In this document: positions 22,313 through 28,933 of the stretch, piece after piece
Position numbering within the stretch: position 1 is the first letter of the stretch
Layout: every line of letters begins with the position of its first letter
Assembly (NCBI GenBank): GCA_009694305.1
Contig: SHVL01000014.1
Coordinates: forward strand, 1-53,730
DNA: 53,730 nucleotides
Origin: Thermoleophilia bacterium
GTDB lineage: Bacteria > Actinomycetota > Thermoleophilia > Gaiellales > Gaiellaceae
Direction of reading: 5' to 3'
Translations under genes and position numbers: made by a program
The notes under the pieces: model-generated
Database searches by the model: none
Told to the model about the DNA's origin: nothing
What the model saw: only the letters and a program-made list of their open reading frames with translations

Positions 22313-23575
22313 GTGGATCAAAGTAACGGCAGACGGAGAATCGTCGTAACCGGGATCGGCGCGGTCAGCTCCCTCGGGAACACGGCCGAGGACACCTGGG
22401 CAGGCCTGATTGCAGGCCGTTCGGGTGCAGGCCCGATCACGCAGTTCGATTCGACCGGCTACGCCGTGCATTTCGCATGCGAGGTCAGAGACCTCGATGT
22501 GACGGACTACATGGACTACAAGGCGTCGCGACGGATGGATCGTTTCACGCATCTCGCGATCGCGGCGGCCCGGCAGGCCGAGACGGATTCGGGGCTCGCG
22601 ATCGCACCGATAGCCGAGCGTGTGGGTGCCGCGATCGCCACCGGGATCGGAGGCTTGCGGTCGTTCGAGACGTGCGTCAACCAGCTGAACGACAAGGGGC
22701 CTGATCGCGTCAGCCCGTTCTCGATCGTCCAGATCATTCCGAATCTCGCAGCCGGTTGGGTCTCGATCGAGCTCGGCACCCGTGGGCCGCTCCTTTCTCA
22801 GTGCACTGCGTGTGCCGCCTCGAACATGGCGATCGGCGACGGCGTGGACGCGATTCGCCTCGGCCGGGCCGACGCGATGATCTGCGGTGGCACGGAGGCT
22901 CCGGTGACGCGGGTGAGCATCTCGGGCTTTGCCGCGATGCGGGCGATCTCGACGAGGAACGACGATCCCGAGCGCGGCTCACGTCCGTTCGACGGCGAGC
23001 GTGACGGCTTTGTCATGGGTGAGGCAGCCGGTGTGCTCGTGATCGAGGCGCTCGAGCACGCGAAGGAGCGTGGCGCCCGGATCTATGCGGAGATTCTGGG
23101 TTACGGCGTCTCCTCCGACGCGAACCACGTTTCTGACCCCGATCCGACGGGGCAGAACCCCGCCCGGGCACTCACGATGGCGTTCGCCGATGCCGGCATC
23201 ACGCCGGAGGACGTGGGCTACATCAATGCTCACGGCACCTCGACCCCCGCGGGCGACTCGGGCGAGACGCGGGTCATCAAGGTCGCGCTCGGTGAGGACA
23301 AGGCCTACCGGACACCGATCTCCTCGACGAAGGGCGCGACGGGGCACTGTCTCGGCGCTGCGGGAGCAATGGAGGCGATCTTCACGATCCTCGCGCTGCA
23401 GCGCGGGATTCTGCCTCCCACGATCAACCAGACGACACCGGATCCCACCTGTGACCTCGACTACATCCCGAACGAGGCACGCCATGAACAGGTCGAGATC
23501 GGCGTCTCGAACTCCTTTGGCTTCGGCGGCCACAACGCGTGCCTCGTATTTCGCCGCTGGCACGATGAGCCCTGA
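22313..23575 (+). CDS. fabF: beta-ketoacyl-ACP synthase II
   Basis: A 420-residue elongating condensing enzyme. The active site is Cys 167 (in CTACAAS), His 307 (AHGTSTPAGD) and His 345 (KGATGHCLGAAG). The C-terminal NSFGFGGHNACLVF is characteristic. The start is GTG at 22313, only 11 bases after fabG, with no strong Shine-Dalgarno. In most bacteria acpP lies between fabG and fabF, but here it does not. Confidence 0.95.
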   Translation: MDQSNGRRRIVVTGIGAVSSLGNTAEDTWAGLIAGRSGAGPITQFDSTGYAVHFACEVRDLDVTDYMDYKASRRMDRFTHLAIAAARQAETDSGLAIAPIAERVGAAIATGIGGLRSFETCVNQLNDKGPDRVSPFSIVQIIPNLAAGWVSIELGTRGPLLSQCTACAASNMAIGDGVDAIRLGRADAMICGGTEAPVTRVSISGFAAMRAISTRNDDPERGSRPFDGERDGFVMGEAAGVLVIEALEHAKERGARIYAEILGYGVSSDANHVSDPDPTGQNPARALTMAFADAGITPEDVGYINAHGTSTPAGDSGETRVIKVALGEDKAYRTPISSTKGATGHCLGAAGAMEAIFTILALQRGILPPTINQTTPDPTCDLDYIPNEARHEQVEIGVSNSFGFGGHNACLVFRRWHDEP

Positions 23576-23649: not shown

Positions 23650-24414
23650 TTGAGCACGTTGCGCGCGCGCTGCCCCGACTGTCGCACGCTGACAGCGGTC
23701 GCGGTCGGGACGGAATACCAGTGCCACAGCTGCGGCCGTGAATATGCCGCCGGTCTCGTGCGTGTTCCCCGGGCGTGGGGAGCAGGTGGCGAGATGATGG
23801 CCGCCGCTGCCTGGCTCGAGCTCCCGTATCCCGAGGCTGCCGTGATCGAGGAGGAGACCCTGGAGGAACAGGTGGCTTCGCAACGACGCAATCTGCCTGC
23901 GCTCCCGCTTGTCCTCGGTGGCTGTTGTTGCGCCCACGTCGGCGCTGTGCGCGGACTTGCCGGCCGTCCGGGCCGGCTCGCTGTCATCTGGGTTGATGCC
24001 CACGGTGACCTCAACACCCCGGAGAGCTCCCCTTCGGGGAACACCTGGGGGATGCCGTTGCGCATGGTGCTCGACGCCGCCGACGTTCGTCCCGAGGATG
24101 TCGCTCTCGTCGGGACGCGCAACCTCGACTCGTCCGAGGTCGCGTACCTTGCAACCGTGGAGGTCGATGAGGACATCGGACGGGCACTCGACGGCTGTGG
24201 CCGGGTCTACGTCGCCTTCGACTGCGACGTCCTGCGGCCCGAAGAGGTCGCGGTGTTCGTGCCGGAGCCGGGTGGTTGGACGTTGCCCGAGGCCGAGGCG
24301 CTCCTTCGAGATGTCGCCGAGAGGTGCACGTTGGCGGGCCTCGGATTGACGGGACTGAGTGCGGGCGCCGACGCTGCGGTCGCGACCCGTCTCGCCCGAG
24401 CAGCCGGCCTGTAG
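23650..24414 (+). CDS. ureohydrolase (arginase/agmatinase) fold protein with N-terminal zinc ribbon
   Basis: A 254-residue protein with an unusual architecture. Residues 8-28 form a four-Cys zinc ribbon (CPDC and CHSC; Cys 8, 11, 25, 28). The rest follows the arginase superfamily: WVDAHGDLNTP with Asp 116, His 118 and Asp 120, and FDCDVL with Asp 191 and Asp 193. The first metal motif, GGDH in arginases, reads GGCCCAH (90-96), placing Cys 93 where the His ligand should be. The binuclear manganese centre may therefore be altered. The start is TTG at 23650 (GGGGG upstream) and is uncertain. It sits between fabF and accD, 35 bases before the latter, but its substrate is unknown. Confidence 0.72.
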   Translation: MSTLRARCPDCRTLTAVAVGTEYQCHSCGREYAAGLVRVPRAWGAGGEMMAAAAWLELPYPEAAVIEEETLEEQVASQRRNLPALPLVLGGCCCAHVGAVRGLAGRPGRLAVIWVDAHGDLNTPESSPSGNTWGMPLRMVLDAADVRPEDVALVGTRNLDSSEVAYLATVEVDEDIGRALDGCGRVYVAFDCDVLRPEEVAVFVPEPGGWTLPEAEALLRDVAERCTLAGLGLTGLSAGADAAVATRLARAAGL

Positions 24415-24449
24415 CCCCGCGGTGGCGAGGCGGGTCTAAGATGGTGGAG

Positions 24450-25304
24450 ATGTCTGCCACCGACAAGGTCGATGTCTCGATCGAGCACAAGCAGGTGACG
24501 CTCGACGACGGGACGGTGAAGAAGCACCCGAACACCTGCCCTGGCTGCGGGTCGCATTACCGCGACGACGAACTGCAGGCGAGCCTTCGTGTCTGCCCGC
24601 AGTGCGAGTACCACTTCCCGGTTCGTGGCCTCGAGCGCATCGAGCAACTTGCCGACCCTGGTAGCTTCGCCGAGGACGAGAGCGCGTTGCGCTCGGGTGA
24701 CCCGCTCGAGTTCTTCGACCTCAGGCCCTACACCGAGCGTCTTGCGGAGGCCGAGGAGTCCACAGGGCTTGGCGATGCGATGATCACCGGCTCTGCCCTG
24801 ATCGAAGCGCTGCCGTGTCGCCTTGCCGTGATGGACTTCTCTTTCATGGGAGGCTCGATGGGGAGCGTCGTGGGTGAGAAGTTCGCCCGCGCGTGCGACC
24901 ATGCGGCTGCCGACCGGCTGCCGCTCGTCTCCGTCTCGTCGTCGGGTGGCGCGCGCATGCAGGAGGGAATCCTGGCGCTCATGCAGCTGCCGAAGACGAT
25001 CTGCGCACTCGAGGAACTGCACGCGTCGGGCGGCGTCATGATCTCCGTGCTCGCTCACCCGACGACCGGCGGACTCCTCGCGAGCTTTGCCTCGCTCGGC
25101 GACGTGCTCGTTGCGGAGCCGGGCGCCCTGATGTCGTTTGCCGGGCCGAGGGTCGTGGCACAGACGACGCGCGAGAAGCTCCCCGACGACTTCGGCCTTG
25201 CCGAGTCGAATCTCCGCTTCGGTCACATCGACAGGATCGTGCCGAGGCAGGAGCTGCGCCCGGTTCTCGCCCAGCTGATCCGGCTCTTTCGGCGGACGGC
25301 ATGA
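24450..25304 (+). CDS. accD: acetyl-CoA carboxylase carboxyltransferase subunit beta
   Basis: A 284-residue beta subunit that with AccA transfers carboxyl from biotin to acetyl-CoA, forming malonyl-CoA. The N-terminal zinc finger has Cys 30, 33, 49 and 52. The crotonase-like core includes MGGSMGSVVGEK, SSGGARMQEG, HPTTGGLLASFASLGD and FAGPRV. The ATG at 24450 has GGTGGAG just upstream; ATG at 24441 is the alternative. The stop overlaps the accA ATG (ATGA). Separate AccD and AccA differ from the fused acyl-CoA carboxylase beta chains of Mycobacteriales. Confidence 0.95.
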   Translation: MSATDKVDVSIEHKQVTLDDGTVKKHPNTCPGCGSHYRDDELQASLRVCPQCEYHFPVRGLERIEQLADPGSFAEDESALRSGDPLEFFDLRPYTERLAEAEESTGLGDAMITGSALIEALPCRLAVMDFSFMGGSMGSVVGEKFARACDHAAADRLPLVSVSSSGGARMQEGILALMQLPKTICALEELHASGGVMISVLAHPTTGGLLASFASLGDVLVAEPGALMSFAGPRVVAQTTREKLPDDFGLAESNLRFGHIDRIVPRQELRPVLAQLIRLFRRTA

Positions 25305-26233
25305 CGAGCGACGCCGAGCTCGGCCTACGCGACCGGCTTGCCCGGTTGAGCGGGGTCAAGCTCCTGCGCGGCACGCGACTCTCGGCAGAGTTCGAGCGTC
25401 TGCAGCGGCAGCTCGAACGGCTGAAGGACGACACCTCTGACGAGGAGATCTGGCAGCGCGTCGAGCTTGCACGGCACAAGGACAGGCCGTACACGCTCGA
25501 CTACGTGGAGCGAATCCTCGACGACTTCTTCGAGCTTCACGGTGACCGCGGCCGGATGGACGACCACGCGATCGTGGCGGGGATCGGCAAGCTCGAAGGG
25601 CGTACGATCGCACTGCTCGGGCATCAGAAGGGCCGTGATCTGAAGGAGCGCACGAAGCGCAACTTCGGCATGGCCTACCCGGAGGGATATCGCAAGGCGG
25701 TCCGCGTGATGGAGCTTGCAGATCGGCACGGGTTTCCACTCGTCACACTCGTTGACACCCCGGGCGCCTTTCCGGGTGTCGCCGCAGAACAGCATGGCCA
25801 GGGCGGTGCTATCGCGCGCTCTCAGGCCATGATGATGCGGCTCGGAGTGCCGACGGTCTCGGTCGTGATCGGCGAGGGCGGCTCCGGCGGCGCGATCGCG
25901 ATTGCCGTCGCCGACCGCGTGCTGATGCAGGAGAACGCGATCTACTCGGTGATCTCTCCCGAAGGGTGTGCAGCGATTCTCTGGCGCGACGCCTCGCAGG
26001 CGAAGAAGGCGGCCTCCGCCTTCCGGCTCGACGCTGCCCACTGTCTCGACCTCGGCGTCATCGAGGGCATCGTTCCCGAGCCGGTCGGAGGAGCGCAGAC
26101 GGACGTAGACGCGGCCGCGCTGTTCCTCCGGGAATCGGTCGTCTCTCACCTGCATGAGCTCGACGGCACTGCGTCGGACGATCTCAGGCGAGCCCGGCGT
26201 GCGAAGTTTCGCTCCATGGGCGTTTTCGCCTAG
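25301..26233 (+). CDS. accA: acetyl-CoA carboxylase carboxyltransferase subunit alpha
   Basis: A 310-residue alpha subunit. An N-terminal coiled region (about 30-60) precedes the conserved core: DDFFELHGDR, GHQKGRD with KRNFGMAYPEGYRKA, DTPGAFPGVAAE, and GEGGSGGAIAI. The ATG overlaps accD by four bases. It ends the plus-strand fab/acc block. No accB or accC genes are in the window, so the biotin carboxylase half must be encoded elsewhere. Confidence 0.95.
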   Translation: MTSDAELGLRDRLARLSGVKLLRGTRLSAEFERLQRQLERLKDDTSDEEIWQRVELARHKDRPYTLDYVERILDDFFELHGDRGRMDDHAIVAGIGKLEGRTIALLGHQKGRDLKERTKRNFGMAYPEGYRKAVRVMELADRHGFPLVTLVDTPGAFPGVAAEQHGQGGAIARSQAMMMRLGVPTVSVVIGEGGSGGAIAIAVADRVLMQENAIYSVISPEGCAAILWRDASQAKKAASAFRLDAAHCLDLGVIEGIVPEPVGGAQTDVDAAALFLRESVVSHLHELDGTASDDLRRARRAKFRSMGVFA

Positions 26234-26387: not shown

Positions 26388-28616
26388 TCAGGCTCCCGAC
26401 ATCCGGTCGAGCAGGAGCGAGGCAGCCCCCTTGTCCAGCATCTCGTTCAGGTTGCCGCACTTGGGACTTTGCACGCAGGAGGGACAGCCGCTCGTGCAGG
26501 GGCACCCACGGAGCAGGCGCGCCGTGTCGGAGACCCAGCCGCCAAAGCACTCGAAGCCCCGCTCGGTGATCCCGACACCTCCTGCGTGGCCGTCATAGAC
26601 GAAGACGGTCGGCAGGCCGGTCTGGAAGTGCACGTTGGTCGAGAGGCCGCCGATGTCCCAGCGGTCGCACATGGCCCAGAGCGGCAGCAGCGAGATGAGC
26701 GCATGCTCGGTTGCGTGGAGGGCGCCGAGCAGCTTTGGCATCTCCTCCAGACCCTCGAGCAGGTCGTCGCCGGGCGAGAACCAGACGGCTTCTGTCGGGA
26801 AGGTTACCTCGGGCAGGGCCAGCGGCACAACGGCGAGGGTCGAGCCGCCGCGGATCGCCTTTCGCTGGTAGGCGATCACCTGTTCGGTCACGGCAACCGT
26901 TCCGAAGTGGAGATCGACCCCCCCGATCCGTTCGCAGCGCAGCGGCTGCTCGATTGCCGTCTGGGTGTCTTTCTGCACCTGCGTGTACCAGTCCACTCCG
27001 GCCGGCTCCACGAGGGCGGTGCGCGCGCCGTCGTCGAGCGTACGCACGAGGTACTGCGCACCGAGATGGAGGTAGACGGCGCCTTCGTGGACCGAGGAGT
27101 ACGCACGCTCCCGCTCGATCAGCCCCAGCACAGCACCCGTTGTCGCGTCCACGATCGTGAACGAATCGCGACCGCCCGAGCGGAGAGAGAAGCGGCCGGC
27201 GGGTGTGTCGCGACCGGTCCAGACAAACCCGGCGGGTGTCTTCTCGAGCTCGGGCAGCAACGCGGCTCGTTCGAGCGCCTCCGGGCCGAGAGTCGGCACG
27301 TCACGTTGGGCAACGGGGCCCTCGAACGCGGCGGCGCACACGTGAAGGTCGAGGATTCGAGGATTCGCATGATCGAGCCGGGTTGCCTCGACGCGCCGTC
27401 CGAGCAGTGACTCCGGCTCACGCATGAAGAACTGGTCGAGGGCATCCTCGCTCGCGACCAGCACGGCAAGGCCGTGCTGGCGCCGACCCGCGCGGCCCCA
27501 CTGTTGGCGCAACGAGGCGACGGTCCCGGGGAAGCCGACCGAGATTGCACAGTCGAGTTGCCCGATGTCGATGCCGAGCTCGAGAGCATCTGTTGCGGAG
27601 ACGCCGAGCAACTCTCCCTCCATCAGCCGTCGTTCGATCTCGCGCCGCTGCGCAGGCGTATAGCCGGCCCGGTAGGGCGCGAGCCGGGCGGCCGTCGCCG
27701 TATCGACGCGATCGGCGGTGAAACGGTGGATCAATTCGGCCGCCTTTCGACTCTTGGCGAAGCAGATCGTGCGAAGCCCCCGGGAGACGAGGCCCGCCAT
27801 CAGAAGCGAGGCCTCGGAGAGCGCGCTCGCACGGATGCCGAGCTCCGGGTCGAGGAGGGCGGGGTTCCAGAGGACGATGTCGCGCTCCGCACGGGTGGAG
27901 GTGTCGGTCTCGACGATCGTTGCCGTCTCTCCGGTGAGCGCGACGGCGAGCTCTGCCGGGTTCGCGATCGTGGCCGAGGCGAGCAGGAAGCGGGGCTCGG
28001 CTCCGTAGAGGTGGGCGAGTCGCCGCAGCCGCCGGATCACGTTCCCCACGTGCGAGCCGAAGACACCCCGGTAGACGTGAGCCTCGTCCACGACGACGTA
28101 CCGCAGGTTGTAGAGGACGTCGCCCCAGAGGTCGTGGTGCGGGAGGATGCCGAGGTGCAGCATGTCCGGATTCGTGAGAATCAGGTTTGCCGATCGCCGG
28201 ATCTGCGCTCGACGCTCTGGCTCGGTGTCGCCGTCGTAGATCGCCGGCCGCACACCCGGTAGGCGGAACCCTGCGATGCCCCTCGCCTGATCCTGGGTGA
28301 GCGCCTTGGTCGGATAGAGGTAGATCGCTCGCGCAGTCGGCTCACGGACGATCGCGTCGAGCACCGGCAGGTTGAACGCCAGCGACTTTCCCGACGCCGT
28401 CCCCGTCGTCACGAGAACGTTCTCGCCGCGTGTGGCTGCCTCCCAGGTCTCTCCCTGGTGCGCGTAGAGCCCGTCGATGCCCATCCGGGTGAGCGCGGCC
28501 GTGACGTGGGGGTCGAGACCGGCCGGTAGCGCCTCGAGCCGCGCTTCACGTGCAGGCTCGGTCGCGCGAAAGGCCATCTCGTCGCCCACGAGGAGCTCGT
28601 CCCAGGGCCGCGTCAC
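26388..28616 (-). CDS. DEAD/DEAH-box helicase with DUF1998 zinc domain (MrfA/Hrq1-like)
   Basis: A 742-residue superfamily 2 helicase. Walker A TTGTASGKS is near residues 70-78, followed by YPTKALTQDQ, DEAH box VVDEAHVYRG, SATI, and motif VI QWGRAGR. The C-terminal DUF1998 region has the Cys cluster CPCTSGCPSCVQSPKCGN. B. subtilis MrfA and yeast Hrq1, with this layout, unwind DNA 3'-5' and act in mitomycin-type or crosslink repair, so a repair role is likely. The GTG start at 28616 overlaps the thioredoxin stop (GTGA). The long frame upstream of it is shadow. Confidence 0.9.
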   Translation of the reverse strand: MTRPWDELLVGDEMAFRATEPAREARLEALPAGLDPHVTAALTRMGIDGLYAHQGETWEAATRGENVLVTTGTASGKSLAFNLPVLDAIVREPTARAIYLYPTKALTQDQARGIAGFRLPGVRPAIYDGDTEPERRAQIRRSANLILTNPDMLHLGILPHHDLWGDVLYNLRYVVVDEAHVYRGVFGSHVGNVIRRLRRLAHLYGAEPRFLLASATIANPAELAVALTGETATIVETDTSTRAERDIVLWNPALLDPELGIRASALSEASLLMAGLVSRGLRTICFAKSRKAAELIHRFTADRVDTATAARLAPYRAGYTPAQRREIERRLMEGELLGVSATDALELGIDIGQLDCAISVGFPGTVASLRQQWGRAGRRQHGLAVLVASEDALDQFFMREPESLLGRRVEATRLDHANPRILDLHVCAAAFEGPVAQRDVPTLGPEALERAALLPELEKTPAGFVWTGRDTPAGRFSLRSGGRDSFTIVDATTGAVLGLIERERAYSSVHEGAVYLHLGAQYLVRTLDDGARTALVEPAGVDWYTQVQKDTQTAIEQPLRCERIGGVDLHFGTVAVTEQVIAYQRKAIRGGSTLAVVPLALPEVTFPTEAVWFSPGDDLLEGLEEMPKLLGALHATEHALISLLPLWAMCDRWDIGGLSTNVHFQTGLPTVFVYDGHAGGVGITERGFECFGGWVSDTARLLRGCPCTSGCPSCVQSPKCGNLNEMLDKGAASLLLDRMSGA

Positions 28617-28933
28617 CCGCTGATGTACTGCGCAAACGCTCGCTCGTAGCGGCTCTTGCTCTGGGGTCCCGCGAGCGTCTCCCGCGCTTCGCCACCGATG
28701 AAGAGGATCACGGTCGGAACGGAGAGAACGCCGTACCGCGACGGCGTTCCCAGATTGACGTCGATGTCGAGCTTGACGAGCCGCACGCGCCCCGCTGCCG
28801 CTGCCGCTATCTCCGTCAGCGCGGGCTCGATCGCCTTGCACGGACGGCACCACGGGGCGCCGAACTCGACGATCACGGGAACGTCGCTCGAGAGAACATC
28901 GGTCGCGAACGTCGCGTCGGTCACCTCGTCCAT
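28613..28933 (-). CDS. thioredoxin-family protein
   Basis: A 106-residue single-domain thioredoxin fold. The active site is WCRPC rather than the usual WCGPC, and the cis-Pro region SVPTVILF is normal. The Arg in the CxxC motif should shift redox potential, so a specific disulfide reductase role is as likely as general thioredoxin. The ATG at 28933 is the first in register with the fold; the longer frame upstream is not conserved. It is coupled to the downstream helicase by a GTGA overlap and follows the glycosyltransferase by 61 bases. Confidence 0.88.
   Translation of the reverse strand: MDEVTDATFATDVLSSDVPVIVEFGAPWCRPCKAIEPALTEIAAAAAGRVRLVKLDIDVNLGTPSRYGVLSVPTVILFIGGEARETLAGPQSKSRYERAFAQYISG

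Follow-up and report, generated by a model that had tools for sequence, protein, structure and literature searches.

A lineage-specific, Cys-type ureohydrolase-fold protein with a zinc-ribbon-like head encoded in the fab-acc block of Gaiellales

Results

A ureohydrolase-fold gene lies between fabF and accD

The window (the whole stretch of DNA that was analysed, 53,730 nucleotides of a Gaiellales genome) carries a fab-acc block in which fabZ, fabH, fabD, fabG, fabF and accA were confirmed by NCBIfam. Between fabF (22313-23575, + strand) and accD (24441-25304, + strand), the latter just under its NCBIfam cut-off (314.4 versus 317.45) and followed by accA (25301-26233, + strand), there is a gene on the same strand at 23650-24414 that encodes a 254-residue protein, with a TTG start and a TAG stop. 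The gene is present in the open reading frame list and was further defined by Pfam, the alignment and a structural model. Its product matches the Arginase family PF00491 with 92.1 bits (cut-off 22) over residues 71-246. The open reading frame, coordinates and ureohydrolase fold assigned in a previous sequence-only reading were correct. The protein reached no NCBIfam cut-off, the best match being rocF (TIGR01229; 79.6 versus 227.6 bits). Next to the acc genes lies a DEAH-box helicase gene (26388-28853, - strand), which scored slightly below the cut-off of the 'helicase/secretion neighborhood' model.

The model of the whole protein, built from a 46-row alignment, had a mean pLDDT of 92.9 and a pTM of 0.92, and its top Foldseek matches were arginases. 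The Thermus arginase 2ef4 matched model residues 21-254 (VIA; Z 27.5, 2.0 A, 221 residues); hence, in the model, the residues from about position 31 onward look like a complete, compact arginase domain, to which a Cys4 stretch has been added as a head. This head consists of two CxxC knuckles, Cys8/Cys11 and Cys25/Cys28 (codons within 23671-23733, + strand), which were invariant in 30 of 30 aligned rows. It gave many Pfam zinc-ribbon matches, all of them below cut-off (best E 0.0006 for the window protein and 0.00011 for any member), and when modelled alone it reached a pLDDT of 69; a Foldseek search with this head-alone model returned nothing significant (best E 0.13), the nearest matches being mostly ribosomal chains. 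Given the poor model of the head, the non-significant fold matches and the sub-cut-off Pfam matches, the head is, by its Cys pattern, a likely zinc ribbon. The N-terminal four-Cys ribbon of the sequence-only reading was borne out in its CxxC...CxxC pattern, while its identity as a ribbon found sub-threshold matches only.

Cys93 stands at the position of the first metal-ligand His

In the HMMER comparison with solved arginases, the GGCCC sequence of the window protein aligned to GGDHS without a gap, with Cys92 in place of the Asp, Cys93 in place of the ligand His and Cys94 in place of the Ser. Hence, Cys93 stands at the position of the arginase first metal-ligand His. His96, the last residue of the GGCCCAH motif (residues 90-96; 23917-23937), is located three residues past Cys93 and does not replace the ligand His; a gapped reading with His96 as the ligand was considered and is not favoured by the ungapped HMMER alignment. 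The sequence-only reading had equated GGDH with GGCCCAH: the triple Cys is there, but the true match is GGDHS with GGCCC, and His96 is not the equivalent of the ligand. Its statement that the other five ligands are intact held in full: Asp116, His118 and Asp120 are found in DAHGD (residues 116-120; 23995-24009), and Asp191 and Asp193 in DCD (24220-24228), so that, with Cys93, all six metal-ligand positions are occupied.

The conservation of these residues was analysed in a motif table comprising the window and 123 hits (from 152 after removal of identical stretches), in which 52 rows form the family; the table includes some fragments from contig edges, and the window was counted twice (as itself and as L003). 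Both Cys93 and His96 were kept in 51/51 family rows covering the position. Cys94 was kept in 50 of them and replaced by Ser in the other, whereas at position 92 there were 45 rows with Cys, 5 with Asp and 1 with Ser. A relative in G060 is 77% identical to the window protein. In a 30-row alignment the four Cys of the head, Cys93, Cys94, His96 and the five other ligands were all invariant. The dN/dS ratio was 0.10-0.24 in seven pairs (dS 0.56-1.37), and the gene is under purifying selection. A sequencing error behind the triple Cys, which the sequence-only reading had left as a doubt, was rejected, as was a frameshift, since the motif recurs in dozens of independent genomes.

The family is confined to the order Gaiellales among the genomes searched

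Some match at E 1e-5 was found in 110 of the 129 genomes of the order, and a strong orthologue (>130 bits) in 68 of them. By taxonomic family, these strong matches were distributed as 66/103 in that of the window, 2/5 in f3, 0/16 in f2 and 0/5 in f4. Additional short contig-edge fragments were present in G035 and G086. No family-level score was found outside the order among 299 genomes of the class and 396 of the phylum, where the best match (G289, 130 bits) carries a GGDC motif, and one IMG/VR scan gave no viral relative. In a scan of GTDB contigs, among the matches listed (at least 595 pattern stretches), 80 loci were kept, of which 36 belong to the family with 57-67% identity; the other kept loci had only 30-44% identity, leaving a gap below the family loci. 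The record titles of the listed family loci read Thermoleophilia, Gaiellaceae, Actinobacteria and similar, with one Burkholderiales. This last record (L035, JAICUZ010000035.1) contains the whole fab-HAD-gene-acc cluster of the Gaiellales lineage, and is likely a mislabelled MAG or contig.

The guanidine-handling residues of arginases are replaced, and the amino-acid end of the pocket is kept

The catalytic, guanidine-handling and pocket roles given here for the aligned residues are those of their arginase counterparts. Trp133, in SPSGNTWG (residues 127-134; 24028-24051), stands at the position of the catalytic proton-relay His (His141 of rat arginase), and a Trp was found there in 52/52 family rows. 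Gly235, in TGL (residues 234-236; 24349-24357), stands at the position of the guanidinium-binding Glu (Glu277 of rat arginase); among the 51 covering rows it was Gly in 49 and Ala in 2, with a gap in the remaining row. The arginase Thr position was occupied by Met in 44, Val in 4 and Ile in 3 rows. In 29 rows that carry the His ligand (His-type rows), the catalytic His and the Glu were present in all and the Thr in 28. Of the marks of an arginase proper (RocF, EC 3.5.3.1), the window protein did not reach the rocF cut-off, and the His ligand of GGDHS, the proton-relay His and the guanidinium Glu were absent from the family.

The residues lining the amino-acid end of the arginase pocket were kept: Asn122 and Ser127 in 52/52 rows, Ser129 in 51/52 (one Thr), Asn131 in 51/52 (one Asp), and Arg157, Asp160 and Glu163 in 51/51 covering rows. 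When compared with RocF (TIGR01229; Thermus 2ef4, Bacillus 1cev), the window protein shares the whole fold (Z 27.5), five ligands and the amino-acid-end residues, but the His ligand, the proton-relay His, the Thr and the Glu of RocF are all replaced. Because of the changes of the proton-relay His to Trp, of the Glu to Gly/Ala and of the Thr to Met/Val/Ile, hydrolysis of arginine or agmatine by the window protein is predicted to be unlikely, in agreement with the sequence-only reading, which had found the location of the gene hard to reconcile with arginine or agmatine catabolism. With the guanidine-handling residues lost and a ribbon-like head gained, the substrate is probably not arginine, and a different C-N substrate is plausible.

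The position before accD is conserved in the family but is separable from the catalytic domain

The search of homologues and of their neighbourhoods that had been proposed in the sequence-only reading was run, and both the motif and the fab-acc setting were conserved across the Gaiellales family. Of the 36 family loci listed, 35 have accD as the next gene in the same orientation, the remaining one ending at the gene, and 30 have fabF upstream. A HAD gene of the 2-haloacid-dehalogenase type was upstream in 32 of the 36, often with a GNAT gene. A 4-base overlap between the gene start and the HAD or GNAT gene before it was seen in the three loci that were read in detail. The best solved match of the HAD was 3smv, an (S)-2-haloacid dehalogenase / L-azetidine-2-carboxylate hydrolase.

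In two relatives from f3 (L125 and L126) the head is absent and the HAD gene is located directly upstream of the headless gene; the 15 kb of L125 yielded neither fab nor acc genes. In this headless f3 locus a gene for a SnoaL-like small protein follows the gene (L125:8999-9418). We also analysed accD in eight hand-picked genomes (six without a strong match, plus G122 and G123): accD was present in 8/8, and in 0/8 was the gene beside it, being on another contig than accD in G122 and G123. Among the accD loci that do not have the gene here, fabF is the immediate neighbour of accD in L158, L160 and L161, and in L155 and L159 the HAD alone lies between them. The accD match of G087 (L159) contains one internal TGA.

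The HAD was rejected as an obligate partner, since it is absent from the window locus and present without the gene in L155 and L159, and for the same reason it gives little functional help; in L006 fabF also ends directly before the gene, and the HAD found in G000 is only 40% identical and lies on another contig. The gene is also neither always present with accD nor always beside it, as would be expected of an acetyl-CoA carboxylase subunit or obligate partner. Since the headless relatives are found outside this setting, and fabF-accD is kept in genomes without the gene, the product is probably not a subunit of acetyl-CoA carboxylase. The fab-acc location stressed by the sequence-only reading was thus confirmed and is conserved, but the catalytic domain also occurs without the head and in other locations.

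These data bear on the possibility that the protein is a non-catalytic regulator or scaffold, whose head would contact RNA or another protein (perhaps one encoded in the fab-acc operon), while the old active site would serve as a ligand or metal sensor. The loss of three residues needed by arginase, the fixed place before accD, the presence of a Cys4 head also in the AccD sequence and the mostly ribosomal, non-significant neighbours of the head model are all consistent with it. No evidence was found for a shared origin of this head and that of AccD. However, a pure scaffold would not need the conserved ligand positions and amino-acid-end pocket, fabF-accD persists in genomes that do without the gene, and one of the two headless relatives was seen away from acc. 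We regard this reading as a serious but doubtful one.

Comparison with zmARG and other solved enzymes

DcsB, the N-omega-hydroxy-L-arginine amidinohydrolase of D-cycloserine synthesis, also has a Cys in place of the first ligand His. Its solved structures (6LUG and others) match the family profile (E 8.7e-18); by its PDB name the substrate of DcsB is a guanidine, which differs from the substrate predicted here for the family. A published precedent for the ligand swap is zmARG, the dimeric arginase of Zymomonas mobilis ZM4, solved as PDB 6KSY. According to that report (PMC6988801), metal 1 is coordinated by Cys92, Asp116, Asp120, Asp212 and a bridging water, zinc was modelled in the crystal, and activity on arginine was obtained only with manganese. 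Both zmARG and the window protein have the arginase fold and a Cys for the first His ligand (GGDCL in zmARG). In contrast to the family, zmARG has no ribbon-like head in its aligned part, has no equivalent of Cys94 or His96 (GGDCLVS), keeps a His, in an HAH stretch, where the family has Trp, and has a reported arginase activity (PMC6988801).

Given this activity, the window protein could be a guanidine ureohydrolase of the ordinary kind, an arginase, agmatinase or guanidinobutyrase, with a drifted but working site: zmARG is reported to be active on arginine with Mn although it has GGDC and its motifs are degenerate, so that arginase activity may survive the loss of motifs, and rocF is the best NCBIfam match. 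Yet the rocF score lies at 79.6 against a cut-off of 227.6, the change of His to Trp is found in 52/52 rows and that of Glu to Gly/Ala in 51/51 covering rows, while zmARG keeps a His in the first of these stretches. In the genome of the window, moreover, C95 carries a GGDH arginase-family gene and C86 a further one. An ordinary guanidine ureohydrolase is an unlikely explanation.

A literature search gave no paper joining a ureohydrolase with a zinc ribbon, and none pairing any two of arginase family, zinc ribbon and Thermoleophilia; for GGDCS together with arginase it returned PMC6988801 alone.

A Cys at the first ligand position marks a broad clade

The rows outside the family are of two kinds in the motif table, GGDH types and GGDC, AGNC, AGEC or SDC types; both sets were retrieved as best hits to the Gaiellales family and are an uneven sample of the superfamily. 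In a tree calculated after the motif columns had been removed, one change accounted for the Cys/His difference, with 29 His rows split from 43 Cys and 18 family rows at 99* SH-aLRT, and the Gaiellales family (18 of its 52 rows) formed one clade, also at 99* SH-aLRT. The same result was obtained when zmARG was added and L002, which has a very long branch, was omitted; zmARG fell among the Cys-types, on a long branch. These trees were quick searches with SH-aLRT support only and with sampling biased to the best hits of the family, and they therefore suggest a single Cys/His change as the simplest reading, not as a proof.

The exchange of the first ligand His for Cys is thus not new, being found across a broad clade of the arginase family and in the solved zmARG. 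The novelty attached to it by the sequence-only reading is contradicted by the 43 non-family Cys rows and by 6KSY; a known enzyme with the same motif, the finding that was said to speak against that reading, exists for the ligand swap (zmARG) but not for the GG[CDS]CC.H pattern. The GGDC proteins, from Actinomycetota, Cyanobacteriota, Pseudomonadota, Chloroflexota and others, share with the family the Cys ligand and the side of the tree, but have GGDC, not GGCCC. Among 44 other Cys-type rows the catalytic His was present in 21 and the Glu in 20, whereas the family lacks both. A second group of 16 Cys-type proteins (100* support), from other Thermoleophilia families (L133, L134, L136-L138 and L140-L150), has AGEC, AAEC, SDC and similar motifs and is without the catalytic His and Glu.

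Three positions after the first ligand, each of the 29 His-type rows has Ala or Ser and the family has His, whereas the residue in the other Cys-types was Glu (16), Ala (9), Asp (6), Ser, Cys or Gly. The position of window residue 96 (23935-23937) is thus Glu, Asp or His in many Cys-types, as if compensating for the Cys, and a compensating contact of this residue to metal A is possible from the alignment. The same pattern, together with the almost invariant Cys93, Cys94 and His96, which a ligand swap does not fully explain, might be read as a redox or soft-metal switch, in which Cys92-Cys93-Cys94-X-His96 would turn the protein on and off by a reversible disulfide or by capture of Zn, Cu or Ni. 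However, Cys92 is Asp in 5 rows and Ser in 1, and Cys94 is Ser in one row, so that a disulfide is not obligatory, and we consider such a switch improbable.

Discussion

The reading that we prefer, with a probability of about one half, is that the gene encodes a member of a Gaiellales-specific subfamily of Cys-type (zmARG-type) binuclear ureohydrolases, with Cys93 as a metal ligand and a substrate that is amino-acid-like and not a guanidine. What is specific to the lineage is Cys94, His96, the Trp for the catalytic His, the loss of the Glu and the Thr, the head and the place before accD-accA. In the proposed mechanism, two divalent metals would activate a bridging water, which would then hydrolyse a C-N bond of a small, amino-acid-like substrate. 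The group that is split would not be a guanidine, as Trp, Met/Val/Ile and Gly/Ala stand where arginase has its proton-relay His, its Thr and its Glu, respectively. By analogy with Cys92 of zmARG, Cys93 would ligate metal A, and His96, one helical turn past it, may help to hold this metal. The four-Cys head is probably a contact module outside the active site, with a bound structural zinc, and the gene, although carried in the fab-acc operon, would probably not provide a carboxylase subunit. As a counterpoint, a protein that has lost three residues for catalysis or binding may just as well not be an enzyme. In a bolder version, which seems to us very unlikely, Cys93 and His96, perhaps together with Cys94, would make up a new soft-ligand variant of the site that prefers Zn, Fe or Ni over Mn. 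It would perform a hydrolysis not known in the superfamily, on a substrate that is made or used in parallel with malonyl-CoA synthesis, and the head would connect the protein to the fab-acc machinery.

These results mark out an uncharacterised ureohydrolase subfamily in a common soil lineage. The single ancient His/Cys change suggested by the trees would set apart a large and mostly unstudied branch of the ureohydrolases, and a protein with its ligands and amino-acid pocket intact, but with the guanidine residues gone, offers a direct test of the extent to which the chemistry of this fold has moved beyond guanidines.
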